Assembly: GCF_002077175.1 (NCBI RefSeq)
Contig: NZ_CP014943.1
Coordinates: 248,001-312,000 of the forward strand
DNA from: Colwellia sp. PAMC 21821
Lineage (GTDB): Bacteria; Pseudomonadota; Gammaproteobacteria; Enterobacterales; Alteromonadaceae
Reading direction: 5' to 3'
Length of the DNA: 64,000 nucleotides
Made by a program: the position numbers and the translations under genes. Every line of letters starts with the position of its first letter. Position 1 is the first letter of the stretch. Below, piece by piece: positions 15,909 to 41,793 of the stretch. The notes beneath the pieces were generated by a model. The model was not told the DNA's origin and did no database searches. It saw nothing but the letters and a program-made list of their open reading frames with translations.

Positions 15909-16056
15909 AACAACTCTCAAAACAAAATGAAGAGCTGTTAATGTAACCTGATGACTAAATTAATCAATATCCCCCATAGGGAGAAGAATCAAAAAAAAAC
16001 AAAATAAATAATATAAAATCAATTAGTTATACTTATTCCATTCAAGTTATACCCTG

Positions 16057-20279: not shown

Positions 20280-21062
20280 TTACTTACGCCCAAGCTGTGG
20301 TTTAAAACTCATCAGTGCAAAAAATGATGCGATGCTTGTGGCAATTAATACCGTCACCAGCGCTGAAGCATTCACTTGCCCATAAAGTGCAAACCGCAAC
20401 AACTCTACACAGGCGGTAAAAGGATTAAACTCGCAAAGCCAATATAACCAAATGCTCGCTTCTTTCATCTTCCATAGTGGATACAAGGCGCTGGACAGAA
20501 AAAACATCGGGAAAATAACAAAGTTCATCACACCTGCAAAGTTTTCTAATTGTTTAATCAAGTTAGATAACATTAACCCTAGCGCACCTAAAAAGAACGC
20601 AATTAAGAAAATAGCGGGTATTGCACTTAAATAACCGAATAGTGGTATATCTACTTCGACTAACTGGGCAAAAAGTAAAAAAATAACTACTTGTAAAAGT
20701 GATAACAAGGCACTGGCAATTAATTTGCAGCACAATAAATAAGGCCGAGGTAATGGGCTCATTAATAGTACTTTCATACTGCCCATTTCGCGGTCATAAA
20801 CCATTGAAAGCGAACTTTGCATGCCGTTAAATAAAATGATCATGCAGCAAAGGCCAGGAGTAATATATTGCTGATAAGTAATATACGTGCCGTAAGGTTC
20901 CATTATCGACACCCCTAAAGCCGCCCTAAACCCTGCTGCAAATACGACTAACCATAATAAAGGCCTTACCAGTGCGCTAAGTAAACGGGAACGTTGTTGA
21001 AAAAAACGTAAAACTTCACGTTTAACAATGCCATTAAAACAATACAGATATTGGCTGCTCAT
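20280..21062 (-). CDS. ABC-2 type permease of PQQ alcohol-catabolism ABC system (PedC-like)
   Basis: 260-residue inner-membrane permease with six hydrophobic segments and the ABC-2 family layout (VKREVLRFFQQRSRLLSALVRPLLWLVVF near the start; LMSPLPRPYLLCCKL in the loop). This exporter-type permease, next to its ATPase, a YVTN propeller and a binding protein, is the set known beside PQQ alcohol dehydrogenases (pedABC in Pseudomonas putida). Its start overlaps the ATPase stop by one base (TAATG), so the genes are translationally coupled. Substrate unknown; efflux of toxic alcohol or aldehyde has been suggested for the family. Confidence 0.88.
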   Translation of the reverse strand: MSSQYLYCFNGIVKREVLRFFQQRSRLLSALVRPLLWLVVFAAGFRAALGVSIMEPYGTYITYQQYITPGLCCMIILFNGMQSSLSMVYDREMGSMKVLLMSPLPRPYLLCCKLIASALLSLLQVVIFLLFAQLVEVDIPLFGYLSAIPAIFLIAFFLGALGLMLSNLIKQLENFAGVMNFVIFPMFFLSSALYPLWKMKEASIWLYWLCEFNPFTACVELLRFALYGQVNASALVTVLIATSIASFFALMSFKPQLGRK

Positions 21063-21790
21063 TAGATAAGCTCCGTACTAGTGGTTAATCGACGATACAG
21101 CTGATATATATCGTCAACGTTATGCGCCTTACATAATTCACGACTTACGCCCTGTGCGGTAATTTTTCCTTCGTTGATCAATATAAGTTGATCATTCTCT
21201 GCTATCTCGTCAATTAAATGTGTTGCCCATAACACGCAAATATTTAAATCTTTGCAGAGTTTACCCACATATTCAGTGATCATTTTTCTGCTATCAATAT
21301 CTAAACCTACGGTAGCCTCATCAAGCAACAATACTTTGGGTTGATGAATTAATGCACGAGCAATTTCAACACGGCGACGATGCCCACCATTTAACGAACG
21401 CACTTTGTCATTCAGCCGCTGTGTTAATTGCAGTTGCGCTAATATATCGCTGATATTATTCAGTGCTTGTGAAGCAGAAATACCATGCAGCGCGGCATAA
21501 TAAACTAAGTTTTGTTTTACAGATAAATCTAAATCTAGTGTACTTTGCTGAAAAACCACGCCCATCGAGCGCATGATTTTAGGGCGATTTTCTTTAAGGT
21601 CATAACCATTAATGTGAACGCTACCCGTAGCCGCTTGAGAAAGACCTGTTAACATTGAAAACAAGGTACTTTTTCCAGCCCCATTTGGCCCAAGCAACAC
21701 GTTAAAACCGCTGCTAATTTTCAGGCTTAAATTATCAATTGCCGTTTTTTTGCCGTAGTGAAAACTCAGCTGATTAGTCACTATGCTCAT
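21062..21790 (-). CDS. ABC transporter ATP-binding protein of PQQ alcohol-catabolism system
   Basis: 242-residue ATPase. ATG 21790 (MSIVTNQLSFHYG) is chosen since it overlaps the upstream stop in an ATGA; an in-frame extension begins inside that gene. Walker A GPNGAGKST, Q-loop VVFQQSTLDLDLS, signature SLNGGHRRRVEIARAL (a GGH variant of LSGGQ), Walker B KVLLLDEATVGLD and H-loop WATHL are all visible. It energises the ABC-2 permease that follows. The changed signature motif is typical of this subfamily. Confidence 0.92.
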   Translation of the reverse strand: MSIVTNQLSFHYGKKTAIDNLSLKISSGFNVLLGPNGAGKSTLFSMLTGLSQAATGSVHINGYDLKENRPKIMRSMGVVFQQSTLDLDLSVKQNLVYYAALHGISASQALNNISDILAQLQLTQRLNDKVRSLNGGHRRRVEIARALIHQPKVLLLDEATVGLDIDSRKMITEYVGKLCKDLNICVLWATHLIDEIAENDQLILINEGKITAQGVSRELCKAHNVDDIYQLYRRLTTSTELI

Positions 21791-22767
21791 GGTACGTTTC
21801 GTATCACTACGCCCCACGGGTAACGCCCTACTTTAATGGATTTAGTCACTTTCATTGCTTTAACATCAATCACCGAAACATCACCGCTGATGCCATTAGT
21901 TGTTAACAATTGGCTTTGATCATCGTTAAATGCCAATTGCCATACACGGCGACCTACTAACAAGTATTTATCGACTGCCATGGTTTTACGGTCAATAACC
22001 GCCACATGATTTGCCGGGCCAAGGGCTACAAAAGCGAAGCGACCATCACTTGATAATTCTATGCCGACCGGTTGTACACGATCACGGTGAATGCCGCGAA
22101 TAGCAAAAGTAAACTCTTTAACAATTTCTTGTGTATTAACGTCAAGCACGACTACGGCTCCGCCAATTTCAGAGCTAACCCATAAAAACTTTCCATCGTC
22201 AGTAAATTTAGCCGAACGAGGTCTAGCGCCCACTAACGTGTTGGCAAAGTTGGTATTATTTTCGGTGTGTATCCAATGCACCATATTGGTGGTTTCTGAC
22301 GTAACTACCACAATTTTTCCATCCGGGCTAACCGCTAACCCTTCAGGCTCAACACCAACATCAATTTGAGCAATAACCGTAGCGGTTTCAATATCAATCA
22401 CCGTAAGGAGTGCATCGTCTTCATTCGAGGTATAAATAATTTTACCGTTTGGGTGTAATGCAATAGTTTCCGGGTCTTCACCAGAGGGTAACTCACCAAC
22501 AATTTGCTCGGTATTTAGGTCTAATATTTGAATTCTGTCTGACTCACTGGCACAAATATAAGCGAGTGTATGTTGCTTATTAAAAATAATGCCACGTGGT
22601 CGCTCGCCAACCGGTATGGTTTTTATTACTGTATTTTGGTTTAAATCAATCACCGAAATATTGTCGTCTTTCTCATTCGTAACATAAGCGAATTCAGTGG
22701 CATAGCCTGAGGTAATATTGAGAGAAATCGCTAAGCATAATAATCTAACAAGCTTTATAATTTTCAT
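21787..22767 (-). CDS. YVTN beta-propeller protein of PQQ alcohol-catabolism ABC cluster
   Basis: 326 residues with a signal peptide and a seven-bladed propeller made of about 42-residue units, each with the YVTN pattern (FAYVTNEKDDNISVIDLN, TVIKTIPVGERPRGI, IIYTSNEDDALLTVIDIET, KSIKVGRYPWGVV). Periplasmic. Proteins of this type are fixed members of the PQQ-associated ABC cluster; they probably present or sense a ligand, function unproven. Start ATG at 22767; the stop overlaps the ATPase start by ATGA. Confidence 0.9.
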   Translation of the reverse strand: MKIIKLVRLLCLAISLNITSGYATEFAYVTNEKDDNISVIDLNQNTVIKTIPVGERPRGIIFNKQHTLAYICASESDRIQILDLNTEQIVGELPSGEDPETIALHPNGKIIYTSNEDDALLTVIDIETATVIAQIDVGVEPEGLAVSPDGKIVVVTSETTNMVHWIHTENNTNFANTLVGARPRSAKFTDDGKFLWVSSEIGGAVVVLDVNTQEIVKEFTFAIRGIHRDRVQPVGIELSSDGRFAFVALGPANHVAVIDRKTMAVDKYLLVGRRVWQLAFNDDQSQLLTTNGISGDVSVIDVKAMKVTKSIKVGRYPWGVVIRNVP

Positions 22768-22782
22768 AAGTAATAGTGAGCC

Positions 22783-24033
22783 TTATTTACAGAGAGATTC
22801 TTGAGCATCAAAGCCAAGCGTATCAAGTTCGGTTATCGGGTGAAGCATGCCAGGCTGAGGTGATTGCGACACCAAAGCATGTGGATGCACCAAAGCCAGT
22901 GGCATTCTTAATTGTTTATTCCAAGCGCGAAAACTAAGCTTGCGGCCTTTGTATGCGGCTAATTCAAATTTATCTGAGCTAATAAAGTCTTGAAGTTTTT
23001 TACTATCGTTTGAATGCAACTTATGTACTGACTGGGCAATACTGCGCACGGCTAAATAACCTGCAAAGTCCATTTCATTCATCGTTCTATCAGCTAATTC
23101 TGTAAAACGATTTTGCAATTGCGTTGCGCCCCACTGTTCAATTGCGCCATGCCAAGCTAAAGCTTCTAAGCCAGCGGAGCCTATAACTGGGCGAGGTAAA
23201 TAAGTATTAAAAGGTAAAAACTCGGCAAAGTTTTTATGCATATCAGCGACATAAACTACGTCATAATCTCGCACGGTTTGGGTAAACAGCGGTATTTCTT
23301 GCTGGGTACTGCGCCTAAGATCAGTATTAAAATCCCATTGTTTTTCATCTATAAATTTTAAACCGAAACGTTTTGCTGAGCGTTTAAATGACGTTGCTAA
23401 ATTAATATCTTCCGCTTCACTGCCATGTACCAATAAAACCTTGTTCATACGACGATATAATAACCACTGCGCCAGCGCGTCAGATTTCATGGCATGACTT
23501 GGAATAGTATGAAATACCTTGGCTAAACACTGACTCGAGCGCAGCTCATCAGCCGATTCGCTAACATTAAATAACAATACTGGCTTGTTTTTAGCCCATA
23601 GGTCGACCTTAACTAATGTTACGAATGGTGCATCAAGAATAAAAATACGTCGCCCTTGCTGATACTCGCTGTTTAAATATTTTAAAAAATCGTTGCTCTT
23701 CGCTGTACTAAAGTGGCTTAACGTAAAGTGTTGTTGTAAAAATTCCCCTGTGGTGTTTGAGTCATTAATAGCCAATTTAGCGCCCATAAAACCGCTATCT
23801 TTCGGTGTATTAAAAATATTCAGCGCATTGGTTGGTCGTTGTTGATCTAACTTAACATAGCTAATATCAAGCGTAATAAGCTGAGATTGTTGTGCCAGTG
23901 CAGTTAAACAAAACAACGACAAGCCGACAGCAAACAGGTGTTTTTTAGCACTTATATTGACCATCGCTGACATAGAATGGGTAAATACAAACACGGTAAA
24001 TGTAACAACAATAAACATAGCGAACTCAAACAT
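22783..24033 (-). CDS. Periplasmic binding protein of PQQ alcohol-catabolism ABC cluster (type 1 fold)
   Basis: About 416 residues, related to branched-chain amino-acid-type binding proteins as found with PQQ alcohol dehydrogenases. ATG 24033 has AGGA eight bases upstream. An internal ATG at 23964 (MVNISAKKHLFAVGLSLF) would give a more usual signal peptide ending LTALAQQ, so the start is uncertain. Visible features: ITLDISYVKLD first strand, SAQC-like SSQCLAKVFHTIPS, LLYRRMNKVLLVHGSEAED and RPVIGSAGLEALAWHG. First gene of a four-gene operon, 15 bp before the propeller. An unusual partner for an exporter-type permease. Confidence 0.82.
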   Translation of the reverse strand: MFEFAMFIVVTFTVFVFTHSMSAMVNISAKKHLFAVGLSLFCLTALAQQSQLITLDISYVKLDQQRPTNALNIFNTPKDSGFMGAKLAINDSNTTGEFLQQHFTLSHFSTAKSNDFLKYLNSEYQQGRRIFILDAPFVTLVKVDLWAKNKPVLLFNVSESADELRSSQCLAKVFHTIPSHAMKSDALAQWLLYRRMNKVLLVHGSEAEDINLATSFKRSAKRFGLKFIDEKQWDFNTDLRRSTQQEIPLFTQTVRDYDVVYVADMHKNFAEFLPFNTYLPRPVIGSAGLEALAWHGAIEQWGATQLQNRFTELADRTMNEMDFAGYLAVRSIAQSVHKLHSNDSKKLQDFISSDKFELAAYKGRKLSFRAWNKQLRMPLALVHPHALVSQSPQPGMLHPITELDTLGFDAQESLCK

Positions 24034-24218
24034 TAGCAAAGTCCTAAGACTATATAGTAGTCAAAATAGTAGTCAAAAAGCGGTCAAATCGAATTATCAA
24101 TGCTTAGCATATAGAAAAACCTCATAAACTTAAAATTAGAAGTACCAGTCAAAAAACACAGTAAAACATTGATACTTAATGTTATTACTCCAAAATTCAC
24201 TTTGAGTAGCCAATAAAC

Positions 24219-24342: not shown

Positions 24343-24783
24343 ATGATAAAACTTAATTCAGGCCGCAATTATTTAATTGCATTAATATTAATTTGTTCAT
24401 TCGGCCTAGCGGCTCATGGCCCAGTAACACCGCAATCAATTGACACCTCAACACTGCCCGCTTTAGGCGAAGAATGGAGTGAAACCAACCCATATCGCGA
24501 ATCAGAAGGTGACACTCGCGAAGAAATTTTACGTGTTGGCGCATCGGCGTATAACCAAAATTGTGCACGTTGTCATGGCTTAGAGGGTATCTCAGGTGGT
24601 ATTGCTCCTGACTTACGTGAACTCGCAAGCGATTATGACGGTGATGAATGGTATGTGTATCGTGTACAAAACGGCGCAGTTCGCAACGGTGCGGTTTATA
24701 TGCCAAAAATGACAGAACATTTAAATCAAGAAGCACTTTGGTCAATTCGTACTTGGTTAGAGTCAGTCAGTGAAAAAGAATAA
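24343..24783 (+). CDS. Cytochrome c (PedF / c550-like) electron acceptor
   Basis: 146-residue periplasmic class I cytochrome c: signal peptide (about 1-23), heme motif CARCH at about residues 66-70, and distal Met in YMPKMTEHL. The context and size match PedF-type cytochromes that take electrons from PQQ alcohol dehydrogenases. It overlaps the next gene by 14 bp and lies 1.2 kb upstream of the dehydrogenase on the same strand. Divergent from the ABC operon with an apparent shared control region. Confidence 0.92.
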   Translation: MIKLNSGRNYLIALILICSFGLAAHGPVTPQSIDTSTLPALGEEWSETNPYRESEGDTREEILRVGASAYNQNCARCHGLEGISGGIAPDLRELASDYDGDEWYVYRVQNGAVRNGAVYMPKMTEHLNQEALWSIRTWLESVSEKE

Positions 24784-25660
24784 TTTCACCGCGTTAATTT
24801 TTTGGCTAAGTTGTTGTGGCATATTTTGCACAACAACTTTTGCGCGCTCGTATGATGACATTATCGAAAGTAATGAAATTACGGTTGCTGTTTATCGAGA
24901 CTTTACCCCCTTCTCATATCAAGTAAATGGCGAAGCTAAAGGTATTGATATAGAGGTAGCAAAGCATATTGCCAAAAAATTAGGTGTCGAACTTCGCTTT
25001 AGGTGGGTAACCGCTGATGAAAATGTAGAAGGAGATTTACGTAATAACCTCTGGAAAGGACATTTCCTTAAACGCACGGTTGCCGACTTAATGCTACGCG
25101 TTCCCTACGATAAAAAATATTCTCAACTGCGTGATGACATTGGTGAATTGGTGCATGAACAAGTACATATGTTTGCGCCGTATCATACAGAGTCATGGAA
25201 AATAGTCTTCAATACTAAAAAAATTGAAGATGTAACCACTATGGCTATTTTTCAGTATCACGACATTGGCGTAGAAGTAGACTCCATTCCACAATTTTAC
25301 CTTATCTCCGCTTTTAATGGCCGAATGAGCAAAAGAGCAAAACAGTTTAATTCATTGCCATTAGCGATATCAGCCATGCATGAACAACAGGTTGATGCGG
25401 TCATGGGTCTGAGAAGTCAAGTTAGTCATTACCAGCATCAGCTAGCCTCACCTGACTACCAGTTAGCCAATAATGCCTTTCCCAATATTGGTAAGCAACA
25501 ATGGGATATCGGTATGGCCGTAAAAAGTGACTATAGACAATTAGGTTACGCCATAGCTGACATTGTCGAGGCAATGATTAGCGATAGCACAATGAAACAA
25601 ATATTTGAAGATTACCATGCTATTTATCAACTCCCTGCGTTTTACTCGGTTGCAGAATAG
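24770..25660 (+). CDS. Family 3 extracellular solute-binding protein (MxaJ-like) beside PQQ dehydrogenase
   Basis: 296 residues, signal peptide ending TTFARS, then a PBPb fold (EITVAVYRDFTPFSYQVNG, GIDIEVAKHIAKKLGVEL). The proteins encoded beside methanol and alcohol dehydrogenases (MxaJ/XoxJ type) share this fold and probably help the dehydrogenase mature or work rather than transport; that role is expected here. Starts within the cytochrome gene, so translationally coupled. No cognate importer is nearby. The last codons are part of a 15-bp tandem repeat. Confidence 0.85.
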   Translation: MKKNNFTALIFWLSCCGIFCTTTFARSYDDIIESNEITVAVYRDFTPFSYQVNGEAKGIDIEVAKHIAKKLGVELRFRWVTADENVEGDLRNNLWKGHFLKRTVADLMLRVPYDKKYSQLRDDIGELVHEQVHMFAPYHTESWKIVFNTKKIEDVTTMAIFQYHDIGVEVDSIPQFYLISAFNGRMSKRAKQFNSLPLAISAMHEQQVDAVMGLRSQVSHYQHQLASPDYQLANNAFPNIGKQQWDIGMAVKSDYRQLGYAIADIVEAMISDSTMKQIFEDYHAIYQLPAFYSVAE

Positions 25661-25943: not shown

Positions 25944-27707
25944 ATGATAACAGCAGGTAAAAATAAAATATTGTCATTATCCATTGCCATGTCTTTAACG
26001 TTAACTGGCCTAGCAAATGCTGGTGTAACCGAAAAAGATATTGCCAATGATCAAATGACAACTAATGACGTAGTGACCTACGGACTTGGCCTAAAGGGTC
26101 AGCGTTACAGTCCACTTGATAAAATAAATACCGAAACAGTTAAGCAAATGCACCCGGTTTGGTCTTTTTCATTGGGCGGCGAAAAACAGCGTGGTCAAGA
26201 ATCTCAGCCTATGGTTAAAGACGGCGTTATGTATATTACCGGTTCATACTCTCGTGTGTATGCTATCGACGTAAATACCGGTGACGAGCTTTGGCAATAT
26301 GATGCAAGATTACCTGATGGCATTATGCCGTGTTGTGATGTTATAAACCGTGGTGTGGCATTATTCGATGACCTAGTTATTTTTGGTACGCTTGATGCAA
26401 AACTTGTTGCGCTGCATAAAGACACCGGTAAAGTTGTTTGGAAAAAGAAAGTAGAAGACTATAAAGCCGGTTACTCAATTACCGCAGCCCCTATTATTGT
26501 TAAAGGTAAAGTCATCACAGGTGTTGCCGGTGGTGAATTTGGCGTAGTTGGTAAAGTAAGAGCTTACGATGCTATCAATGGTAAATTAGTATGGGAACGC
26601 CCAACAGTTGAAGGCCATATGGGCTACATCTGGAAAAACGGCAAAAAAATGGAGAATGGTATTTCAGGTGGTAAACCTGGACAAACTTGGCCAGCAGAGC
26701 TTTGGAAATCAGGTGGCGCCGCGCCTTGGCTAGGTGGTACTTATGATGCTGACGTTGATCTTCTGTTTTTTGGTACTGGTAACCCTTCCCCATGGAACTC
26801 ACATCTGCGCCCAGGCGATAACCTTTTCTCATCTTCACGTTTAGCTATCGACCCAGATACGGGTAAAATTGTATGGCACTTTCAAACAACGCCACATGAC
26901 GGTTGGGATTTTGATGGTGTAAACGAGCTTATTTCATTCGATTACAAAGAAAAAGGTAAAACCATTAAAGCAGCAGCAACAGCTGACAGAAACGGCTTTT
27001 TCTACGTACTTAATCGTGAAAATGGTGACTTTATTCGTGGTTTCCCATTTGTAGACAAAATCACCTGGGCTTCAGGTCTTACTGATAAAGGTCGCCCAAT
27101 TTATGTTGATAGCAACAGACCTAGCGATCCAAGAGAATCAAAAGATGGCAATAAAGGTAGTACAGTTGTTTCGGCCCCTGCATTCTTAGGTGCTAAAAAC
27201 TGGATGCCAATGGCTTACAGTCAAGACACTGAATTATTCTATGTGCCTTCAAACGAATGGCAAATGGATATTTGGAATGAACCTGTCGCTTATAAAAAAG
27301 GCGCGGCATACTTAGGTGCTGGTTTTACCATTAAAGCCATTAATAAAGACTACATTGGTGTATTAAAAGCCATTGACCCTAAAACAGGTGAGGTAATTTG
27401 GCGCTACAACAACTATTCACCATTATGGGGTGGTGTATTAGCTACTGCGGGTAACTTAGTATTTACTGGCACGCCAGAGGGCTATTTACTTGGTCTTAAT
27501 GCTAAAACAGGTGAAGTTAAATATAAATTTAATACTGGCTCAGGCATTGTCGGTTCACCTATTACTTGGGAAATGGGCGGCGAGCAATACCTGTCAGTTC
27601 TCTCTGGCTGGGGTGGCGCAGTACCATTATGGGGCGGTGACGTTGCAGAGCGTATTAAGCACTTCAACCAAGGTGGCAGTGTATGGACATTTAAACTACC
27701 TAAATAG
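25944..27707 (+). CDS. PQQ-dependent alcohol dehydrogenase, predicted lanthanide type (ExaA/PedH-like)
   Basis: 587-residue periplasmic quinoprotein oxidising primary alcohols to aldehydes. Signal peptide ends GLANAG; ATG follows GAGGAAATAAC. Eight-bladed propeller with tryptophan-docking repeats ([28 protein letters not shown]). Key residues: adjacent Cys130-Cys131 in [10 protein letters not shown], which form the ring disulfide at PQQ; catalytic Asp322 in GWDFDGVNE; and Asp324 two positions later. In XoxF, ExaF and PedH that second Asp binds the lanthanide, while Ca-enzymes have Ala, Ser or Thr, so I predict lanthanide dependence. There is no C-terminal heme domain, so the upstream cytochrome is the acceptor. 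Substrate range (ethanol, longer alcohols or phenylethanol) is open. Confidence 0.95.
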
Positions 27708-28014: not shown

Positions 28015-29535
28015 ATGATCTATTCAAACCCAGGCAGTGAAGGTTCTGTTGTTTCTTTTAAACCTAAATATGAAAATTTTATCAATGGTCAGTGGGTAGC
28101 TCCTGTTAAGGGAAATTATTTTACCAACACTACACCTGTTACTGGTGAAGTTATTTGTGAAATTCCTCGTTCAAGCAGCGAAGATATTGAATTAGCACTT
28201 GACGCAGCTCATGGCGCTAAAGAAGCTTGGGGCAAAACATCAGTTCAAGACCGCTCTAGAGTCTTACTGAAAATTGCTGACCGTATTGAAGAAAACCTTG
28301 AAAAAATTGCCGTTGCTGAAACATGGGATAACGGCAAGCCAGTGCGCGAAACTCTTGCCGCTGATATTCCATTATGTGCTGATCACTTTCGCTACTTTGC
28401 CGGTTGTATTCGTTCACAAGAAGGTTCACTTTCACAAATAGATAACGACACAGTTGCTTATCATTTTCATGAACCAATTGGTGTTGTCGGTCAAATTATT
28501 CCTTGGAACTTCCCAATACTAATGGCGGCATGGAAACTTGCCCCTGCACTTGCTGCTGGTAACTGTGTAATTTTAAAACCTGCTGAGCAAACACCTGTCA
28601 GTATTTTAGTATTAATGGAAATTATTGCTGACTTACTACCACCGGGCGTTTTAAACATAGTCAATGGTTTTGGTAAAGAAGCCGGTGAAGCACTAGCTAC
28701 AAGCACACGTATTGGTAAAATAGCATTTACTGGCTCTACAGCTATTGGTGGACACATTCTTAAATGTGCTGCTGAAAACCTAATTCCTTCAACGGTAGAG
28801 CTAGGTGGTAAATCACCAAACATTTTCTTTAAAGACATTACACAATTTGAAGACGACTATTTAGATAAATGTGCGGAAGGCTTTGTTTTAGGCTTCTTCA
28901 ACCAAGGTGAAGTTTGTACTTGTCCGTCTCGTGCCTTAATTCAAGAAGATATTTTCGACGAATTTATGGAAAAAGTTATTGCTAAAGCCAATAAAATTAT
29001 TCGTGGTAACCCATTAGATACTGAAACTATGGTCGGTGCTCAAGCCTCTCAAGAACAGTTTGAGAAGATCATGAGTTATTTAACTATCGGTAAAGATGAA
29101 GGTGCTGAGCTTTTAACCGGTGGTCATAAAGAAAGCTTAGGTGACTCTTTAGAAACAGGTTTTTACATTCAACCGACCATTCTAAAAGGTCATAACAAAA
29201 TGCGCATCTTCCAAGAAGAAATTTTTGGACCGGTTGTCGCTGTAACTACCTTTAAAGATGAAGCCGAAGCACTAGCCATAGCCAACGATTCAGTTTACGG
29301 TTTAGGCGCTGGTTTATGGACACGTGACGCTAACCTTGCACACCGCATGGGTCGAGGTATTCAAGCGGGTCGAGTATGGACTAACTGTTACCATTTATAC
29401 CCAGCTCACGCAGCATTTGGTGGCTATAAAAAATCAGGTATCGGTCGTGAAAACCATAAAATGATGCTTGATCATTACCAGCAAACTAAAAACTTATTAG
29501 TAAGCTATAGCACAAGTCCTTTAGGTTTCTTTTAA
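28015..29535 (+). CDS. Aldehyde dehydrogenase (ExaC/PedI/AcoD-like)
   Basis: 506-residue NAD-linked cytoplasmic aldehyde dehydrogenase that would oxidise the aldehyde made by the PQQ enzyme to an acid. ATG preceded by GAGGTGA. Family motifs: [27 protein letters not shown] nucleotide loop, base Glu in [10 protein letters not shown], catalytic Cys301 in GEVCTCPSR (a second Cys two residues later is typical of the AcoD/ExaC group). Own transcription unit between two terminators, with the island motif upstream. Confidence 0.95.
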
Positions 29536-29554: not shown

Positions 29555-29590
29555 AAGGGTGCCTTTCTTTAACGAGATTGGCACTTTTTT
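29555..29590 (+). terminator. Likely rho-independent terminator
   Basis: AAGGGTGCC / GGCACTTTT imperfect stem (two G-T pairs) with a 16-base loop and T-run, 20 bp after the aldehyde dehydrogenase stop and just before the NosR-like gene. Confidence 0.55.
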
Positions 29591-29637
29591 ATTCAGCGAA
29601 TACTGATCAGTTTGTAACGATTTATGGGGGTGTTAGC

Positions 29638-31776
29638 ATGCATTTACAAATACTCAACTTCCTAATAACAAGGGTGATTTTCATTCTTGTTTTTATGCTT
29701 GCACCCTCTTTTTATTCTTTTTCTTTTTCTCCTGTTGAGGCTCAAAATACCACCTCAATTTCTGCCAATATTGCCGAAATTTTCCCCAGTGCTACACGTT
29801 TAGGTCCTGTTGATAAAAAAATTGCCGTAACGCCGGTTTATCAGTTAGGCGATTTACTCGGTTATGTTTTTGAATCAGACGACTTTACTAATTTCATTGG
29901 TTTTTCAGGACAAACCATCAATATTCTCATTGGTATTGACACTCAAGGCGTTATTACCGGATTAAAAATATTAAATCATCATGAACCGATATTTTTGCAC
30001 GGCTTAGGCGAGCCCCCATTATTCAATTTTGTTAATCAGTATCAAAACCATTCAGTTAAAGAGCGTTTTATTATTAATGCGCGCGATAAATCGTCAAAAG
30101 ATGCTACGTATTTCGATGGCATTACCCGCGCTACCATTTCAGTATTAGTCGTTAACGACACCATAATTGCTTCTGCACTTAAAGTGGCACGAGAAAAGTT
30201 ATCGGGCTTTGTTGCACCTTCTAATTTCGTGGTTAATCCCGACTTTTTTGAAAAACTAAGTTTTGAGCAACTAATTAAGAAAAAATATATACAGCGCTGG
30301 CAATTAACTCGCGACCAAGCACTCGCTCTAACCCAAAACGAATCAAACACACTCACCAATACCATAAAAAAATTAAGCGATGATACCAACGACTTTATCG
30401 ATTTATATTTCGGGTTTGCAAACATCCCTATTGTGGGTAAAAACTTATTAGGCGAAACAGAATACCAACGCTTACTCGAAAGTTTAATCCCCGGTGAACA
30501 TGCCTTAATGGTATTAAATCGTGGTAACTATGCTTTTGTTAGTGAAGAGTTTATTCCACAAACCGTTCCTAGTCGTTTAAGCGCAACGCAAGCATCACTG
30601 CCGGTTGATATGCGCGATGTCGACTTTTATAGCTATTTCAATCCTAGGTTTGCAATTGAAATACCCGACTATAATGAAATTAAAGTGTTCCGCATTAAGT
30701 CTCAATCTGGCTTTGAACTGAACAAAGAGTTAACCCTGTCGTTAGCTGTTACCTACAACCAATCATTTTTATCTAAAAACCAGCACAACTTTAACTTCGC
30801 GAGTACATTGCCTGAAGCGTTGTTTCTTGATAAAACCCCTTTAGTTCAGCCTGAAAAAGCGCAACCATTATGGCTAAAACTTTGGCTACAACGTAGCACT
30901 GAAATTATCATACTTTGCATATATCTTATCGCCTTAACACTAATTTTTATTAAGCAAGAAACGTTGGCGAAAAATGAAAAGTTAACCCACCAAGTACGCT
31001 TTATCTCCTTGCTATTTGTTATCGGCTTTATCGGCTTTTATTCCCAAGGCCAGTTATCTGTTGTCAACATTTACACCTTGTTATTGTCAATCAAACAAGG
31101 CTTTAACATTGAAGTATTTTTGCTTGATCCGGTAATATTTATTTTATGGGTTTTTGTCTTTATTACGCTGTTTTTATGGGGCCGAGGTTTGTTTTGTGGT
31201 TGGTTATGCCCTTTTGGTGCACTACAAGAAATAATGACTTTGATAGCCACTAAGCTAAAAATAAAACAAATTAAAATTAAGCCTCAACACCATAAAGCGG
31301 GGCAAAAAGTAAAATATGTATTGCTGGTATTATTAGTCGCTTGTTCTTTTTACTCACTAACACTAGCAGAACAATTAGCTGAAATAGAGCCTTTTAAAAC
31401 CAGCATAACACTTAATTTTGTGCGCTATTGGCCGTTTGTTTTGTATGCTGTTTTACTGCTACTTTTGAGCTTAAAAATTCATAAATTTTATTGCCGTTAT
31501 TTGTGCCCGTTAGGCGCAGGGTTAGCTATTATTGGTCGATATCCCATATTTAAATGGTTAAGACGTCGTGATGAATGTGGCTCACCTTGTCAGCTTTGTC
31601 GTAATAAAAAATGTGGTATAGACGCCATTAAACCCACAGGTGCAATTGACTACAGTGAATGTATTCAATGTTTAGAATGTGTTGTAGTTATTGAAAGTCC
31701 TAAGCTATGCGTAGTTAATAAATATGCAAATAAAACAAAGCCTTCACCGATAAAGGTATTGAACTGTAACCAGTAA
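29638..31776 (+). CDS. NosR/NirI-like FMN-binding, polyferredoxin membrane protein
   Basis: 712 residues from ATG 29638, chosen for GGGGGTG upstream and a signal-like start (MHLQILNFLITRVIFIL); a longer frame begins 20 codons earlier. N-terminal periplasmic FMN-binding domain (about 60-200; FDGITRATIS is the flavinylation-type motif with Thr), then about five TM helices, Cys motifs CGWLCPFGAL and CRYLCPLGAG, and a terminal ferredoxin part (CGSPCQLCRNKKC; CIQCLEC). NosR and NirI pass electrons across the membrane in denitrifiers, but no nos or nir genes are here. Relatives occur in PQQ/methanol dehydrogenase loci. Probably redox supply or sensing; role unknown. Confidence 0.85.
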   Translation: MHLQILNFLITRVIFILVFMLAPSFYSFSFSPVEAQNTTSISANIAEIFPSATRLGPVDKKIAVTPVYQLGDLLGYVFESDDFTNFIGFSGQTINILIGIDTQGVITGLKILNHHEPIFLHGLGEPPLFNFVNQYQNHSVKERFIINARDKSSKDATYFDGITRATISVLVVNDTIIASALKVAREKLSGFVAPSNFVVNPDFFEKLSFEQLIKKKYIQRWQLTRDQALALTQNESNTLTNTIKKLSDDTNDFIDLYFGFANIPIVGKNLLGETEYQRLLESLIPGEHALMVLNRGNYAFVSEEFIPQTVPSRLSATQASLPVDMRDVDFYSYFNPRFAIEIPDYNEIKVFRIKSQSGFELNKELTLSLAVTYNQSFLSKNQHNFNFASTLPEALFLDKTPLVQPEKAQPLWLKLWLQRSTEIIILCIYLIALTLIFIKQETLAKNEKLTHQVRFISLLFVIGFIGFYSQGQLSVVNIYTLLLSIKQGFNIEVFLLDPVIFILWVFVFITLFLWGRGLFCGWLCPFGALQEIMTLIATKLKIKQIKIKPQHHKAGQKVKYVLLVLLVACSFYSLTLAEQLAEIEPFKTSITLNFVRYWPFVLYAVLLLLLSLKIHKFYCRYLCPLGAGLAIIGRYPIFKWLRRRDECGSPCQLCRNKKCGIDAIKPTGAIDYSECIQCLECVVVIESPKLCVVNKYANKTKPSPIKVLNCNQ

Positions 31777-31815: not shown

Positions 31816-32964
31816 ATGCATGAAATAAAAACAATTACGGCAGTTAGTAAAGCTACCGACCCTGCCATTGCAAGCCAAGAGCTTTATCAACAATTAAATA
31901 AAGCTAACATCAGTTTCGTGCTGTTTTATTGTTCTTCAACTTATTCGCTATACACCCTAGCACAAAATATGGAGCGCACCTTTACCGATATCGATATTGT
32001 TGGCTGTACTACCGCGGGCGAAGTCACGAACCAAGGTTACGAGCAGCATTCTATAGTCGCTATTGGTTTTTCTAGCCAATACTTTGCAATTTGCGCTACA
32101 TTGATTGAGTCGATGGAAAAGTTCGACACGATTACTGCCCAGTCAACCATTAATGAGTTAGTAGAAAACTGCCAATCTAAAGAATTAACAGAGATAAAAA
32201 ACAACAGTTTCTTACTCACTTTACTCGATGGTCTTTCTTCTAGCGAAGAACAGTTTTTAGTCACCCTAAACTCTGCAGCCAGAGCCATTCCTCACTTTGG
32301 TGGCTCTGCAGGCGACGATATAAATTTAACTAAAACCCATGTTTATTATCATGGCAATTTTTATCGAAATGCTGCCATTGTTATTATGGTTAACACCATT
32401 TTGCCATTTGAAGTTTTTACCTGTCATCACATAAAGCGCCCAATAGAAAAACTCGTGGTTACCGATGCTGACGCGGCCAACAGAACGGTGTACGAATTAA
32501 ACGCCGAGCCCGCAGCATTAGAGTATGCAAAATTACTTAATGTTGACCTAAAAGATTTAAGCCCAGAAGTATTTTCGCTTAACCCATTAGCCGTTAAAGT
32601 GGGTGGTGACTACTATATTCGCTCTATTCAAAAAGTGAATGAAACCGACTTAAGCCTAACGTTTTACTGCGCAGTAGATGTTGGCATTGTGCTAACAGCA
32701 GTAGAAATGGGTGACATATTTTCCCCGGTAACAGACAAACTCGGTGAAATTTCAAAACGTTATGGTGCCCCTGAATTAGTACTTACCTGTGATTGCTTTT
32801 TAAGACGATTAGAAATCGAGCAAAAAGGCCTAGAAGCACGTGTAAAAACCTTAAATGCGCAATACAACATTGTTGGTTTTAATACCTATGGCGAGCACAC
32901 TAATGGCATTCACTTAAATCAGACTTTTACCGGCGTTTATATCGCTGGAGGCTTAGATGAGTGA
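31816..32964 (+). CDS. FIST-domain sensor protein (NosP-like)
   Basis: 382-residue cytoplasmic sensor: FIST N domain (about 30-220; DIVGCTTAGEVTNQGY, FGGSAGDDINL) and FIST C domain (about 225-375; NPLAVKVGGDYYIRS, CDCFLRRLEIE, GFNTYGEH). It ends overlapping the hybrid kinase gene by 8 bp. In Pseudomonas aeruginosa the FIST protein NosP (PA1975) binds heme and nitric oxide and is encoded with the hybrid kinase NahK/ErcS' (PA1976), next to the ethanol-oxidation genes; the same arrangement is seen here. Heme and NO binding by this copy is inferred only. Confidence 0.85.
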   Translation: MHEIKTITAVSKATDPAIASQELYQQLNKANISFVLFYCSSTYSLYTLAQNMERTFTDIDIVGCTTAGEVTNQGYEQHSIVAIGFSSQYFAICATLIESMEKFDTITAQSTINELVENCQSKELTEIKNNSFLLTLLDGLSSSEEQFLVTLNSAARAIPHFGGSAGDDINLTKTHVYYHGNFYRNAAIVIMVNTILPFEVFTCHHIKRPIEKLVVTDADAANRTVYELNAEPAALEYAKLLNVDLKDLSPEVFSLNPLAVKVGGDYYIRSIQKVNETDLSLTFYCAVDVGIVLTAVEMGDIFSPVTDKLGEISKRYGAPELVLTCDCFLRRLEIEQKGLEARVKTLNAQYNIVGFNTYGEHTNGIHLNQTFTGVYIAGGLDE

Positions 32965-35521
32965 ACAAGCATTAAAAGACGAACTAGCAGAATTAAAACA
33001 TCAAAATTCCAAGTTAAAAAAAATTAACAATGCCTTAATGCAACGTGTTGAAGACAGTGGCGAAAACCAATATGCGCCCTACACTGCCTTCGAACATTCG
33101 GTTCATTTAGCCGAACAAGTGAGAGAAAAAACCCAGACATTAAATGAAACTCTGGCAAAACTTGAATCGACCAATCGCGCGCTTAAACAGGCAAGTGATA
33201 AAGCGAACCTATTTAAACAGCGTTTTATTGATGCCATTGAAAGCATTTCAGAAGCCTTTGTTTTACTCGATGGCGATGGCAGAATTATTCTTCAAAACAG
33301 TAATTTCGCCAGTTTTTGGAGCGACTCTGGCTTACCAATTGTTGAAGGCGCGAACCTTAAAGACTTAAAAGAGTTAGCAAAAACTCGCGGTATTATTCGC
33401 CGAGCATCACCAGGTGATAATTTTGCCAGCCCAGTTTATCAACTGTCAGATGATCGATGGTTTCAATTAAACGAGCATCGCACCAGCGAAGGCGGCTGGG
33501 TAATGCTTTATACCGATATAACCGCCATAAAAAATGCCGAAAGTGCCCGTTACGAGCGCGGTATGGCGCAAAAGTCGCTGTTACTACAAAACTTAATTGA
33601 TAACCTTTCGCAAGGTGTTGTGTTGATCAGCAGCCAAAACAAAATTGAAGTGTGGAACATGCGATTTGCTCAAATAAGCCAGTTGTCGCCTAACCTTTTG
33701 CGCTCTATGCCCAATACCGCCAACGTGCAAAATTTAACCGAGCTTGATCTAGCGCCCAAATCTAGCACCGATAATTATTATTACACTCAAACGCTGATGA
33801 ACGGCACGGTATTAGAAATACGCGATCATCGACTGAATAACGGCAAAATAATTAAAACTTACAGCGATATTACTGAACGCCATCGTTATGCAGAATCATT
33901 AAGAAAAAGTGAAAGTTGGCTGCGATTAATTACCGATAACGTGCCCGCTATGATCGCCTACATAGGTGAAGATCTAAAATATCAGTTTACTAATCAGGTG
34001 TATGTTGATTGGTACGGTTTGCCACAAGGCGGACTTAATGGTTTGGAATTAGAACAAAGTCGTGTGCATTCAAATTTCACCGAATTAAAGTCTTATGTTA
34101 ATCGCGCCTTAAAAGGTGAAAGTGTCAGCTTTTCAATGGAAGAAAAAAACAAAAAAGGTGAGCCCTGCTATCTTTTAAAATCTTATGTACCTAATCGCGA
34201 CAGTAAGGGGCATGTTCTTGGGTTTTTCGTGCTTATTCGCGACATTACCGCACGAAGAAAAGATGCCCTAGCGCTACAAAAAGCGCATGACGAACTTGAA
34301 GTAAGAGTGCAAGAAAGAACCGAGCAGTTACAAGGGTTAAACGACAAACTTATTGTAGAAGTAGCAGAGCGAAGCCAAGCACAAAGTAACTTACATAAAG
34401 CCAAAAGCGAAGCCGAGTTTGCCAACAGTACCAAAACTAAATTTTTAGCCGCGGTAAGCCATGATTTACTGCAACCATTAAATGCCGCACAGCTATTTAC
34501 CAGCTCATTGATGGAAAAAACGTTAGAAACCCATACCAAAAAATTACTGGGCTCTGTGTCTAATTCATTGGACGATTTAGAGAATTTAATTTGCACATTG
34601 GTAGATATTTCTAAACTAGATGCGGGTGTTGTAAAAGCCGATAAAAGCTCATTTAAATTGTCAGAATTACTCAATAACCTCGCCAGTGAATACCAACAAA
34701 CCAGTGACCAATTCAATGTAAAATTAGGCTATGTAAGTAGCGATTTAGTGGTAAATTCTGACAGTGTATTATTAGCGCGCATACTACGTAACTTTCTTTC
34801 TAACGCTTTTAGATATGCAGGCAATGGCAAGGTATTACTGGGTTGTAGACGACAAGGTGACCATGTATCAATTGAAGTATGGGACAACGGTATGGGTATC
34901 GCCCAAGACCAACTTCAAGAAATTTTCAAAGAGTTTAAACGCCTTAAATCTTCTCAATCAGCATTTAGAAATGGCCTAGGTTTAGGACTTGCCATTGTGG
35001 ATAAAATTTCAAAAGTATTAGAGCAACCTATTATGGTTAGCTCTACCTTAGGAAAAGGCTCGGTATTTTCGGTAAAAGTGCCATTAGGCAGAATAAGCGA
35101 GTTACCTCAGTCCATTGACCCACAAAATTTCATCATGGACAACACAGTTTTAGCTAAACGTAAAATTTGGATTGTCGATAACGATGCCACCGTATGTGAA
35201 GGTATGGCTGAACTATTAGGTGGCTGGGACTTTATAGTAACCACCGCAACAAGCCTTAAGCATTTACAGCAACAAGTTGATATTGCAGCTGATCATGCGG
35301 ATATATTAATTGTTGATTACCATCTTGATGACGGCGTAAATGGTTTAGACGTTGCTAATGAAATTAATAACTTACGCGATGATGTACTACCGGTCATTAT
35401 GATCACAGCCAACTACAGTAAAGAGTTAAAGAACGAGGTAAAAGCCAACGATGTTTTATTGCTAAACAAGCCAGTTAAACCGATGAAGTTAAAAACGTCG
35501 ATGCTTTACTTATTAAAATAA
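32957..35521 (+). CDS. Hybrid histidine kinase with PAS domains and receiver (NahK/ErcS'-like)
   Basis: 854 residues, no TM segment, so cytosolic. Order: coiled coil (1-80); PAS (about 90-200); PAS-like (205-300); PAS (320-440); coiled coil; HisKA with phospho-His502 in AAVSHDLLQPLNAAQ; HATPase with DNGMGIAQDQ and NGLGLGLAIV; receiver with phospho-Asp787 in LIVDYHLDDGVNG and Lys in LNKPVKP. The SHDLLQPLNA H-box and order match NahK/ErcS'. Translationally coupled to the FIST protein, its probable input. It could signal to the LuxR-type regulator at 9608 directly or through a phosphotransfer protein; no Hpt gene is in the window. Confidence 0.9.
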   Translation: MSEQALKDELAELKHQNSKLKKINNALMQRVEDSGENQYAPYTAFEHSVHLAEQVREKTQTLNETLAKLESTNRALKQASDKANLFKQRFIDAIESISEAFVLLDGDGRIILQNSNFASFWSDSGLPIVEGANLKDLKELAKTRGIIRRASPGDNFASPVYQLSDDRWFQLNEHRTSEGGWVMLYTDITAIKNAESARYERGMAQKSLLLQNLIDNLSQGVVLISSQNKIEVWNMRFAQISQLSPNLLRSMPNTANVQNLTELDLAPKSSTDNYYYTQTLMNGTVLEIRDHRLNNGKIIKTYSDITERHRYAESLRKSESWLRLITDNVPAMIAYIGEDLKYQFTNQVYVDWYGLPQGGLNGLELEQSRVHSNFTELKSYVNRALKGESVSFSMEEKNKKGEPCYLLKSYVPNRDSKGHVLGFFVLIRDITARRKDALALQKAHDELEVRVQERTEQLQGLNDKLIVEVAERSQAQSNLHKAKSEAEFANSTKTKFLAAVSHDLLQPLNAAQLFTSSLMEKTLETHTKKLLGSVSNSLDDLENLICTLVDISKLDAGVVKADKSSFKLSELLNNLASEYQQTSDQFNVKLGYVSSDLVVNSDSVLLARILRNFLSNAFRYAGNGKVLLGCRRQGDHVSIEVWDNGMGIAQDQLQEIFKEFKRLKSSQSAFRNGLGLGLAIVDKISKVLEQPIMVSSTLGKGSVFSVKVPLGRISELPQSIDPQNFIMDNTVLAKRKIWIVDNDATVCEGMAELLGGWDFIVTTATSLKHLQQQVDIAADHADILIVDYHLDDGVNGLDVANEINNLRDDVLPVIMITANYSKELKNEVKANDVLLLNKPVKPMKLKTSMLYLLK

Positions 35522-36696: not shown

Positions 36697-38448
36697 TTAT
36701 TCAGAGTCTGAATAATCAGTGAGAGCTTTCAAGTAGTTCGATATATCTTCTGCGGTTAAATGCTCAACTTTACTGCAGTTTATTTGCTGAACTCGGCAGT
36801 ATTTTGTTTTAGCTAGCGCTAGGCTAGCGTTAATAAAGTGCTTATCTTGGCTTAAACTCAATAAGCACTTTGGTATTTCTTTTAATCGTGCATCAGGGTC
36901 AACATCGAAAGCACTATAAATAGCGAAATAAGCCGAATTTTCAATTATTAACGCTTGCGTTGCATAACAAAAACCTTGGCAACGACGTGCTAAAAACGCT
37001 GGGTAGGCGCTAACGATATAGCTGGTAATATTGGCGATGACTTGTTCAGTGGCGATAATTTTTGTTAGCCATAAGACGTTGTTTTGATCACACACCCTAG
37101 CCGCCTGAACGCTCTGCTGTTTACTAACCCGCTCTTTACTAACCCGTGCATGGTCACTTAGTTCAGCTTTGGATAACTGCTCAGAAGTTAGCTGAGCTTT
37201 TGCTTGTTCGCAAAGCTTGCTGAACAATTTTGGTAGTAACGTCTGTTTGGCAGTTGTTGCTATTGCCTCACTATTTATATCAGCTGTTCGTGCGTTATTA
37301 GCCGTTTTTACAAACTTTTTAGATAATAATGCTAAAGGCGCAATTAAGCCGCATTTAAGTGTATCTGCTAGCGCCGCAGTATTATTTTTTAATATATTTG
37401 CATTGCTTGCATTGTTTGCATTGCTTGAACAGTTAACTTCTGTGTAGCTAGTTATGTTTTGATGCTTAGATGCTTGCAAACTAACATGGTAGGCATTAAT
37501 CAGTGCGTTTATTGCTGGAGAATACTTTGCTTGATGTTGAACAGTTTCATCATTGTTAGCCGCTTCATTTATCTCAGGTTTACGCTCAGGTTTATTCTCG
37601 ACCTTTAATGCTGGTTCTTGCTTAGGTGGTTCTTGCTTAGGTGGTTCTTGCTTAGTTGACGCTTGCTGTTTTTGCCCTTGATTCGTTAGCTTTTGGTTAG
37701 TTTGCTTTTTGTTAGTTGGCTTTTTTGTAGTTGGCACAGGTAAGAGCGAAATTAACGCTGAAATTTTTTCAACATCGGCATTAGCGGTAACTAAAGTCAT
37801 ATTACTTGCTTGATAAAAGCGTTGATGAAAAGCCGTTAAATCATTTAGGGTTAAGTTGCCAATAGTGCTGCTAACGCCACCATAGTTAAACTCTTCTTTT
37901 GTCTCGCTGCTTGCACTTATAACAGCACTTTCAACCGTACTTTTAGCCCTATTTTTAACCGCACTTTTTACATCGGTTTTAACATCAACTTCTGTTGCAC
38001 TTTGTATTTCACTTTCTTTATCGGCTTGCTCTATGCCAATAAGTTCTCGATAGATAACACCTTTTTCATGCCCGTCATAAACTTCACAGCCTAAATCATC
38101 TTTATCGAATACTGGCGAAAACAAACCATTTAATAAATATTGAATACTTAAATCAAAGGTATCAAGACACTGGCTTTGGCAATGAAAATAAGTGCTTTGT
38201 GCAAACGTTGAGGCATTAATTTTTGCATCGGTGAGTGCGGTTAGTTGAAATAACGTTTCAGGCTGAGGAAAAGCAAAGCTGCGACGAAAAACACTATGTT
38301 CAACGCCATGCGCAACCCCGCTATTATCAAATATAGGGGTGTTAACAACAAACAATGCGCTAAAGCCCTCACTATTGACAATATTGACATGTTTTAAACC
38401 ATTTTCATGGCGATATACTTTGTCTATCAACGGTGCAGCTAAGCTCAT
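36697..38448 (-). CDS. PqqF-like M16 peptidase, with low-complexity insert
   Basis: Last gene of the pqq operon, overlapping pqqE by ATGA. The N-terminus is M16-like: zinc motif HxxEH (H47, E50, H51 in AHGVEHSV) and a distal Glu region GVIYRELIG. Known PqqF/PqqG peptidases trim the PqqA product. It has 583 residues, shorter than most PqqF. The middle, about 155-350, is low complexity: a [20 protein letters not shown] repeat-like tract and a [14 protein letters not shown] tract, and recognisable peptidase-domain homology after this is weak. It may have a single active domain plus degraded remainder. Activity is uncertain. Confidence 0.75.
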
Positions 38449-39698
38449 ATTTTCACAGTAACAATGTTTAACTCAGCATTTTTAGCATGTTTCATTGCCG
38501 TACTTTGGTTAATGCGCTCAACAATAGCTTTAGAGGGCTTAGTTGCCTCTGCTATTGCCTGCTGAATTAAATGGTGATCTTCAGACTTACTGCAAACCGG
38601 GTCGGTTTTGTGCATATCGCCCGTCATCATAAAGGCCTGACAACGACAGCCGCCGAAGTCTTTTTCTTTCTCATCACAACCTTTGCAAGGCTGTGGCATC
38701 CAGTCGTCGCCACGAAAGTATTCAAATGAGAAGTCTTGCTGCCATATATCGGCAATCGACTTGTCTTTAACGTTGGGGAAAGTCAGTGGTAACATTTTTG
38801 CGCTATGACAAGGCAGCGCTGAACCATCAGGCGTAACCGTTAAAAAAGTAGTGCCCCAGCCATTCATGCAGGCTTTTGGACGGGTTTCAAAGTAGTCAGG
38901 CGTAACAAAAATAAAATGCGGCCCTTTACCTTGTTGTTTATCTCTAAATTCGTTAACAATACGCTCAGCTTCAACCAATTCGGCTTGCGTAGGGAGTAAA
39001 TGATCACGGTTTTGATACGCCCAACCGTAATATTGCGCAGTGGCTAACTCAACATAATCAGCCTCTAACTCACAACTTAAACGCATAACTTCAGCAATTT
39101 GACTGATATTTTGTTTTGAAATAACAAAGTTAAGCACCATAGGATAACCTTGCGCTTTAACCGATTTAGCCATTTTAAATTTTTGCTTGTAGGCGTTACC
39201 TTTACCGGCAATAGCATCGTTAACTTCTGGGTCAGCCCCCTGAAAACTTATTTGAATATGGTCTAAGCCCGCTACTTTTAACTTCGCAATGCGTTTTTCA
39301 GTTAAGCCAATACCCGAGGTAATTAAGTTCGTATAAAAACCTAAATCTCTAGAATGTTTTACCAATACTTCTAAGTCTTTTCGTATTAGCGGTTCGCCAC
39401 CTGAAAAACCTAGCTGCACCGCGCCCATGTCTCGGGCCTCGGTAAATACTTGGCACCATTGCTCGGTGGTTAGCTCATCTTTGGTTTCAGTTAACTGTGT
39501 GGGATTTGAACAATAAGGGCAATGTAATGGGCAGTCGTAAGTTAACTCGGCAAGCAACCATAGTGGTGGGCCAACTGTTGAAACGCTTTCAGTTAGCATT
39601 TCGCTTGAATTTTCACTTGAATTTGCACCCTGATTTTCGCTTATATTTACACTAGGAGTTTCGCCTACTGAATCAGATGTAGCGGTTTGATCATTCAT
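38445..39698 (-). CDS. pqqE: PqqA peptide cyclase (radical SAM/SPASM)
   Basis: Joins Glu and Tyr of PqqA by a carbon-carbon bond, the first step of PQQ synthesis. ATG 39698 (MNDQTATSD) is chosen since it overlaps the pqqD stop in ATGAATGA. 417 residues, longer than usual because of an N-terminal Ser/Glu/Asn-rich tail of about 45 residues before the radical SAM core. CPLHCPYC binds the SAM cluster; GFSGGEPL follows. The SPASM end carries [28 protein letters not shown] and PVC for two auxiliary clusters. All expected cysteines are visible. Confidence 0.97.
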
Positions 39699-39975
39699 AA
39701 TATAGCCACTTTTTTTCAATCGCTGTACTAATAAACTCATTCACATCAGCGGATAAGTCGCCAGCATCAGGGAATTTGTCATTCAGGGTATCAGTAATTT
39801 CTTTAACGCTTTTTTTACCGTCAACTAGCTGCATAATCTCGCCAGCACCAGCGTTAAGTTTAACCATACCTTCAGGAAACAATAGCACAAAACAGTTTTG
39901 TGCTTTTTCCCACTGAAAACGAAACATGGTATTAAGTACGGGGACTTTGTTAGATGCTAATGCTGCTGTACTCAC
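39691..39975 (-). CDS. pqqD: PqqA-binding chaperone PqqD
   Basis: 94-residue peptide-recognition protein that presents PqqA to PqqE. GTG start at 39975 overlaps the pqqC stop (GTGA), and its stop overlaps pqqE. Family features: [31 protein letters not shown] and [14 protein letters not shown]. Complete and of usual length. Confidence 0.96.
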
Positions 39976-40738: not shown

Positions 40739-40762
40739 AAAAATGGATCCTATAAAGTAAGG

Positions 40763-41680: not shown

Positions 41681-41793
41681 ATGTGCCTCGAAATAAAACA
41701 AGTGGGAAGAGAGAAGTAACCGGTGATAATTAATTACCTCAGTTATTCATCAAATAGAGATAACTGAAGTAATTTATTAATGATGTAAAATAA

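Follow-up and report, generated by a model that had tools for sequence, protein, structure and literature searches.

A PedH orthologue with predicted lanthanide dependence and a candidate outer-membrane lanthanide receptor on one island of the Colwellia sp. PAMC 21821 genome

Within the stretch of the Colwellia sp. PAMC 21821 genome that was analyzed for the current report (64,000 nucleotides of contig NZ_CP014943.1, referred to here as the window) there is an island of genes that includes an orthologue of the Pseudomonas gene pedH. We consider it very probable that the product of this gene is a periplasmic PQQ dehydrogenase that uses a light lanthanide and not calcium, and that the island also carries a lanthanide uptake route. 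The metal, the substrate, the ligand of the receptor and the transport steps are predicted here from the sequence of the enzyme, the register of its metal ligands, its clade, the gene content of the island and the co-occurrence of some of these genes in related genomes. By its sequence the window gene is an ordinary orthologue of PedH and its product an enzyme of a kind that is already known; the more useful result is the TonB-dependent receptor that is encoded on the same island. The features on which the analysis draws are collected in Table 1.

Table 1. Features of the island, with positions in the window and the basis for each assignment (scores in bits)
Feature	Position	Strand	Basis
LutH-like TonB-dependent receptor, candidate outer-membrane lanthanide(-chelate) receptor	13569..15920	-	PF07715 and PF00593; co-occurrence with pedH
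pedC/lutF-like ABC permease	20280..21062	-	PF01061; ped/lut name by position
pedB/lutE-like ABC ATPase	21062..21817	-	PF00005; ped/lut name by position
pedA2/lutB-like beta-propeller protein	21787..22767	-	TIGR03866, 511.7 (cut-off 287.3)
pedA1/lutA-like substrate-binding protein	22783..24039	-	TIGR03863, 494.4 (cut-off 413.6)
pedF, cytochrome c-550, electron acceptor	24343..24783	+	TIGR04494, 188.7 (cut-off 122)
pedG/XoxJ-like periplasmic binding protein	24770..25660	+	Position; weak MoxJ-type family match, 22 (cut-off 212)
pedH orthologue, PQQ-dependent alcohol dehydrogenase, predicted lanthanide-dependent	25944..27707	+	TIGR03075; identity with PedH 6ZCV
W321-D322-F323-D324 (D322 predicted catalytic, D324 predicted extra lanthanide ligand)	26904..26915	+	Register with PedH Asp323/Asp325
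exaC/pedI acetaldehyde dehydrogenase	28015..29535	+	NF050026, 964.5 (cut-off 900)
NosR-like FMN/4Fe-4S membrane protein	29578..31776	+	NF046105, 618 (below cut-off 1000); FMN_bind and Fer4_5
nosP, nitric-oxide-sensing protein	31816..32964	+	NF041558, 563.5 (cut-off 450)
nahK/ercS-family hybrid kinase (pedS1-like)	32957..35521	+	NF041832, 521.6 (cut-off 400)
pqqF-like M16 peptidase	36697..38448	-	PF05193, 27.7 (cut-off 23); named by position
pqqE	38445..39740	-	TIGR02109, 550 (cut-off 381)
pqqD-like small ORF	39691..39975	-	Position between pqqC and pqqE
pqqC, split between two frames (about 40738-40466 and 40472-39975)	39972..40738	-	Both pieces below family cut-off
pqqB	40763..41701	-	TIGR02108, 390 (cut-off 245)
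pqqA, 23-residue precursor peptide (presumed)	41794..41865	-	Motif (E-V-T-L-Y core)

The dehydrogenase and its metal ligands

The pedH reading frame specifies a protein of 587 amino acids, which belongs to the methanol/ethanol family of PQQ dehydrogenases by its score of 786.5 bits against the TIGR03075 model (cut-off 480). The original prediction for this DNA had drawn attention to an Asp-X-Asp signature in the protein, and the four codons concerned (TGG GAT TTT GAT) do specify W321, D322, F323 and D324. The closest solved structures are those of the P. putida PedH protein, 6ZCV (E 5.8e-295) and 6ZCW (E 9.8e-293), and the alignment with 6ZCV yields 408 identities among 577 aligned residues (71%). 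In this alignment E198, N280, D322 and D324 stand opposite E199, N281, D323 and D325 of PedH, i.e. all four metal ligands are in register, and the vicinal cysteines Cys130-Cys131 match C131-C132. The four ligands of PedH are described as holding Pr3+ in 6ZCW (PMC11845868). The WDFD stretch aligns in register not only with PedH but also with PNDAWDFSGNNE of the calcium-dependent ExaA (1FLG), which has Ser at the position equivalent to D324. The possibility that the motif is a chance match is ruled out by the register with PedH together with its conservation in relatives (see below), and a calcium enzyme of the PedE type is ruled out by the presence of Asp, not Ser, at position 324. The assignment to the PedH/ExaF type of lanthanide enzyme, which had also been put forward from the sequence, gains support from the same identity and ligand register and from the clade to which the protein belongs, and it fits the immediate neighbours of the gene, which specify a cytochrome of the PedF type and the aldehyde dehydrogenase ExaC.

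The likeness to PedH of Pseudomonas putida/alloputida KT2440 (PP_2679; 6ZCV and 6ZCW) extends beyond the protein, in that the KT2440 locus is likewise neighboured by pedF and a pedG-like gene. Unlike KT2440, the window's genome yielded no PedE calcium partner, and its pqq genes and a TonB receptor gene lie on the same island. PedE/ExaA (1FLG) belongs to the same fold family as the window enzyme and shares with it the Glu, Asn and Asp ligands and a cytochrome of the PedF type, but has Ser in place of D324. The host of another enzyme to be compared here, ExaF, is methylotrophic and possesses MxaF and XoxF in addition. ExaF itself, from Methylorubrum extorquens AM1, is likened to the window enzyme by description, as an ethanol dehydrogenase that depends on lanthanides and shares its PQQ-ADH type, 2b (PMC11996626).

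The genome consists of one contig of 4,884,300 bases. A search of this contig with the dehydrogenase (E<=1e-5) returned one full match and a partial match of 29% identity over residues 72-218, and TIGR03075 returned one match at E<=1e-20, so that no other full-length PQQ dehydrogenase of the methanol/ethanol type was found by either search. It had been proposed that the enzyme is the only one of its kind on the island, and the proposal can be extended to the genome as far as it was searched. The alternative that a second, calcium-type enzyme is encoded elsewhere in the genome found nothing in its favour at E<=1e-5 beyond the partial match.

Distribution and clade of the PedH-like enzymes

We examined a sample of 395 genomes of the family, drawn from a larger group, by searching with the whole protein and without use of the motif, and by scoring up to the best three candidates per genome. 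A PQQ dehydrogenase match at E<=1e-40 occurs in 61 of these genomes; PedH-like proteins (74-100% identity) are found in 52, and nine genomes carry only PQQ enzymes of the Thr type. Position 324 is Asp in each of the 51 PedH-like proteins in which it can be read, namely the window protein and 50 others, the 52nd (in G155) being a fragment that ends short of the motif site and is left out of this count. The same position is Ser in all six PedE-like proteins (51-54% identity) and Thr in all 16 rows of the quinohaemoprotein type (L158-L173). Six more distant rows have no cysteine pair, and read WDWDE in two cases and WDWAA in four; the two WDWDE proteins (L174 and L175) are distant PQQ dehydrogenases of genomes G355 and G406, each of which has a second copy of the receptor gene a few kb away from the gene for this dehydrogenase (G355:C34 and G406:C40).

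In a midpoint-rooted tree of 55 proteins, which does not include P. putida PedH itself, the window protein is placed inside the D-x-D clade of PedH (support 100/94), with the Ser-type PedE clade (100/100) as its sister under one node (100/100), and apart from both the Ser-type PedE proteins and the Thr-type quinohaemoproteins. The residue at position 324 follows the clade. The window pedH is 97% identical to its counterparts in three congeners, with every ligand kept, and its nearest named relative is that of Colwellia polaris (97%). A set of 80 named loci was left out as evidence of motif conservation, one of the two search patterns by which they were collected containing the motif.

When up to the best three candidates per genome were scored, a PedE-like partner was not found in 46 of the 52 family genomes with PedH, and PedH was the only match at E<=1e-40 in 39 of them. 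The PedE-like proteins that do occur in this sample always accompany PedH (6/6 genomes); PedE is reported to occur alone in some Pseudomonas species (PMC12997753). An enzyme of the PedH type is not unusual, given its presence in 52 of 395 family genomes and the lanthanide dehydrogenases already published for marine bacteria, which by one account occur in 20% of 1,888 marine genomes (PMC11996626).

Gene content of the island

The genetic surroundings of pedH vary in how faithfully they are shared. Among the flanks (up to 10 kb) of the 80 named pedH relatives, a match to pedF is present in 71 and to pedG in 72, and the substrate-binding gene, exaC, the NosR-like gene and the receptor are matched in 44, 39, 18 and 6, respectively; in the window the NosR-like gene adjoins exaC. 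Across whole genomes the PedA1-like substrate-binding protein follows PedH more closely, in that all 52 family genomes with PedH have it, as against 0 of 28 that do not have PedH (80 tested). The hybrid kinase that follows nosP also scores 984 bits against NF041831, below the cut-off of 1500 for that model.

A transposase gene (17626-18864, + strand) sits between the receptor gene and those of the ABC transporter, and gave no match in the stretches from three congeners. Further upstream are two alginate lyases with the PF08787 domain (4334-5734 and 8456-9406, + strand), which we take to be of the PL7 type, and a repeated-domain protein is encoded between them at 6136-8298. These lyases fit the earlier description of the host as an alginate-degrading marine bacterium. 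A response regulator at 9608-10267 was considered as ErdR and set aside, since it scores 150.8 bits where the cut-off is 390; it was likewise rejected as the counterpart of the regulator that lies beside a receptor relative in Methylobacterium nodulans (see below), to which it is 23% identical.

PQQ synthesis and the split pqqC gene

The pqq genes of the island span 36697-41865 of the window. The pqqF-like gene at one end of this span, which we named by its position, had no NCBIfam match at E<=1e-8, and the small peptide at the other end is presumably PqqA, its E-V-T-L-Y core being the mark by which we recognized it. The frame of pqqC is broken at a short homopolymer near 40466-40472, and the split gene is the only copy found in the genome; consequently, the strain as sequenced may be without PQQ synthesis of its own. 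The gene is intact in the relatives G006, G009, G014, G022 and G050. Across the 52 genomes with PedH, pqqC is matched in 41 and exceeds the cut-off in 40, the exception being the window's genome; the G245 copy is divided by a contig boundary. The other 11 genomes yielded no pqqC match; they include the single-contig genomes G177 and G198, and all of them have the receptor. The loss of PQQ synthesis alongside PedH thus seems to be recurrent, and with these 11 genomes as precedent the frameshift in the window may be real, an error of assembly being as possible. In three of the genomes without a pqqC match (G154, G177 and G198), PedH and the receptor are present and no PqqU-like receptor was found among the 15 candidates scored.

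The state of pqqC bears on whether the island is in decay, in which case pqqC would be a genuine pseudogene and this particular strain would leave the dehydrogenase idle as an apo-enzyme. The two frames in which the pieces of the sole copy lie, the intact gene in five relatives and the apparent recurrence of the loss are what such decay would leave behind. The remainder of the window speaks differently: among the congener ORFs that could be matched to it (three congeners; at least 100 amino acids and at least 60% identity) none is split except pqqC, the near identity of pedH to that of the congeners has been retained together with every metal ligand, and the break, one indel next to a short homopolymer, could have arisen in assembly. 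We regard decay of the island as doubtful.

The TonB-dependent receptor and its association with PedH

The receptor has the plug and barrel architecture of TonB-dependent proteins. In the family sample, in which up to the best two candidates per genome were scored for the receptor, it was found at E<=1e-60 in 52 of the 395 genomes, and these are exactly the 52 that have PedH. The 343 genomes without PedH yielded no match to it, and among these are the nine that have only Thr-type enzymes. The two genes are on one contig in 40 of the 52 genomes, at distances of 7.9-44 kb, and on different contigs in the remaining 12. Their co-inheritance is therefore due in part to linkage, and the related genomes of one family are not independent events for the co-occurrence.

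A wider sample of 369 genomes of the class, also drawn from a larger group and scored for PedH with up to the best three candidates per genome, gives a looser picture. PQQ dehydrogenase matches occur in 63 of these genomes, and the motif was read in 62 of them, i.e. in all except the genome of the window. Where at least one D-x-D enzyme is present the receptor was found in 33 of 48 genomes and not in the other 15, as compared with 1 of 12 genomes that have only the Ala, Ser or Thr types. Two genomes fell into neither group, and one of them has the receptor. The difference between D-x-D and Ala/Ser/Thr-only genomes has a Fisher p of 2e-4 for the 60 classed genomes (the two unclassed ones were left out), in a test that ignores kinship. 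The sole genome with only calcium-type enzymes and a receptor match, G488, is 78% complete. The other 306 genomes of this sample gave no PQQ dehydrogenase match, and the receptor was found in none of the 80 of these that were tested. Outside the family, the receptor is present in only 4 of the 13 class genomes with a PedH-like protein. This proportion, together with the 33 of 48 for D-x-D enzymes at large, indicates that the receptor is not obligatory, and the 4 of 13 suggest that other bacteria with PedH use another lanthanide route, as P. putida must. A LutH homologue is described as missing from KT2440 (PMC12997753; PMC6839425), unlike the window's genome with its LutH-like receptor.

Insights into the possible role of the receptor can be drawn from its relatives. 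The protein of M. nodulans shares 33% identity with the window receptor over 733 aligned positions (E 3e-115), and its gene is followed by one for a response regulator and then by one for lanmodulin (175.5 bits, cut-off 135). When the M. nodulans protein is used as the query in the window's genome, the window receptor is the sole match at E<=1e-3 (13 candidates scored). The row of receptor, regulator and lanmodulin genes is borne on plasmid pMNOD02 (L323, 14788-18547), which also bears a dehydrogenase cluster of the MxaF type (WDYA). For M. extorquens AM1 it is reported that lutH neighbours the gene for lanmodulin and that lanthanum deposits are absent from a lutH mutant (PMC7391723); by its position two genes from lanmodulin, the protein of M. 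nodulans is presumably LutH. The lut cluster of AM1 is described as having, like the island, a substrate-binding protein, an ABC ATPase and a permease in addition to the TonB receptor (PMC7391723). Unlike LutH, to which it is compared by way of the M. nodulans relative, the window receptor is tied to PedH and not to XoxF.

The position of receptor relatives next to dehydrogenase genes varies. On a plasmid of Sphingobium indicum a relative has pedF close by and a WDFD dehydrogenase at a distance of 4.4 kb. In three of the five plasmid contexts that were read (Caballeronia, Ideonella and Methylocalor) the genes listed for the 12-15 kb around the receptor relative include no PQQ dehydrogenase, and the one nearest to the M. 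nodulans relative is of the calcium type (WDYA). Because of these contexts, the positional link between receptor and dehydrogenase does not hold everywhere. The wide occurrence of LutH-like receptors has been described before (PMC12482762, PMC11996626); the link between the receptor and PedH in this bacterial group was not found in the open-licence papers searched.

One might ask whether such a receptor is instead an importer of PQQ, by which a strain with a broken pqqC would scavenge the cofactor. The nearest solved structures to the receptor are those of E. coli PqqU/YncD (partial, E 1.5e-16), the 11 PedH genomes that have no pqqC match all retain the receptor, and a PqqU-like protein at E<=1e-50 was not found in 63 of 64 genomes, a soft absence in that up to the best 15 candidates per genome were scored. 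Against a role in PQQ import, the receptor scores 108.7 bits where the PqqU model has a cut-off of 1200, and scores higher (153.5) with a general model for TonB-siderophore receptors; 40 of the 52 PedH genomes keep it despite a pqqC match over the cut-off, and a relative of it is found near lanmodulin. Eight of the nine genomes with only Thr-type enzymes are also without pqqC and none of the nine has the receptor, so that PQQ probably enters by another route, and we judge the PQQ importer to be improbable. Our preferred assignment, based on its sequence and on the company that it keeps, is that the receptor is probably an outer-membrane receptor for lanthanides.

A proposed route from lanthanide uptake to alcohol oxidation

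The observations can be accommodated in a scheme in which the window enzyme would oxidize ethanol and other short alcohols in the periplasm, with PQQ activated by a light lanthanide and not by calcium. The ion would be held by E198, N280, D322 and D324, with D322 doubling as the catalytic base and D324 supplying the additional negative charge and bidentate coordination required by a trivalent ion. Electrons would pass to the adjacent PedF cytochrome and the aldehyde to the adjacent ExaC dehydrogenase, and PQQ would come from the pqq genes of the island, in which pqqC is split. Since the searches of the genome turned up no partner of the calcium type, PQQ-dependent alcohol oxidation in this strain should depend on the supply of lanthanides, and such a dependence would explain why a complete uptake route is present on the island. 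This route would lead across the outer membrane by way of the LutH-like TonB receptor and across the inner membrane by way of the ABC transporter, which is similar to PedA1A2BC/LutABEF.

Strict dependence of the window enzyme on lanthanides is suggested by analogy with the biochemistry of PedH. A metal-flexible or calcium-using enzyme in this organism is very improbable, even if the D-x-D motif alone is no proof of dependence (it is taken as a sign of at least facultative dependence in PMC11996626, which also puts seawater at about 10 mM calcium and about 10 pM lanthanides) and one review reports that PedH can also coordinate calcium (PMC11845868), since the protein is a close homologue of a PedH whose activity was seen with lanthanides only (PMC5487730), the calcium paralogues in the same family all keep their Ser, and the uptake genes track the D-x-D enzyme within the family.

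Implications for marine relatives of Colwellia

If the dependence on lanthanides is true, the oxidation of alcohols by these bacteria would be a lanthanide-requiring process, in spite of a roughly billion-fold excess of calcium in seawater (PMC11996626). The crossing of the outer membrane by lanthanides in P. putida is described as unresolved (PMC12997753), and the agreement between the presence of the receptor and that of PedH in 395 of 395 family genomes now provides a named and testable candidate for this step in marine bacteria. We give an about even chance to the broader proposition that the receptor is a dedicated outer-membrane gate for lanthanides in a wide group of non-methylotrophic marine bacteria whose PQQ-dependent oxidation of alcohols depends on these metals, and that it is inherited with PedH and kept despite the loss of PQQ synthesis, such that the cells would import the metal through this receptor and PQQ by some other route. 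The receptor might also serve as a marker that separates the lanthanide-using genomes of this family from those that use calcium.
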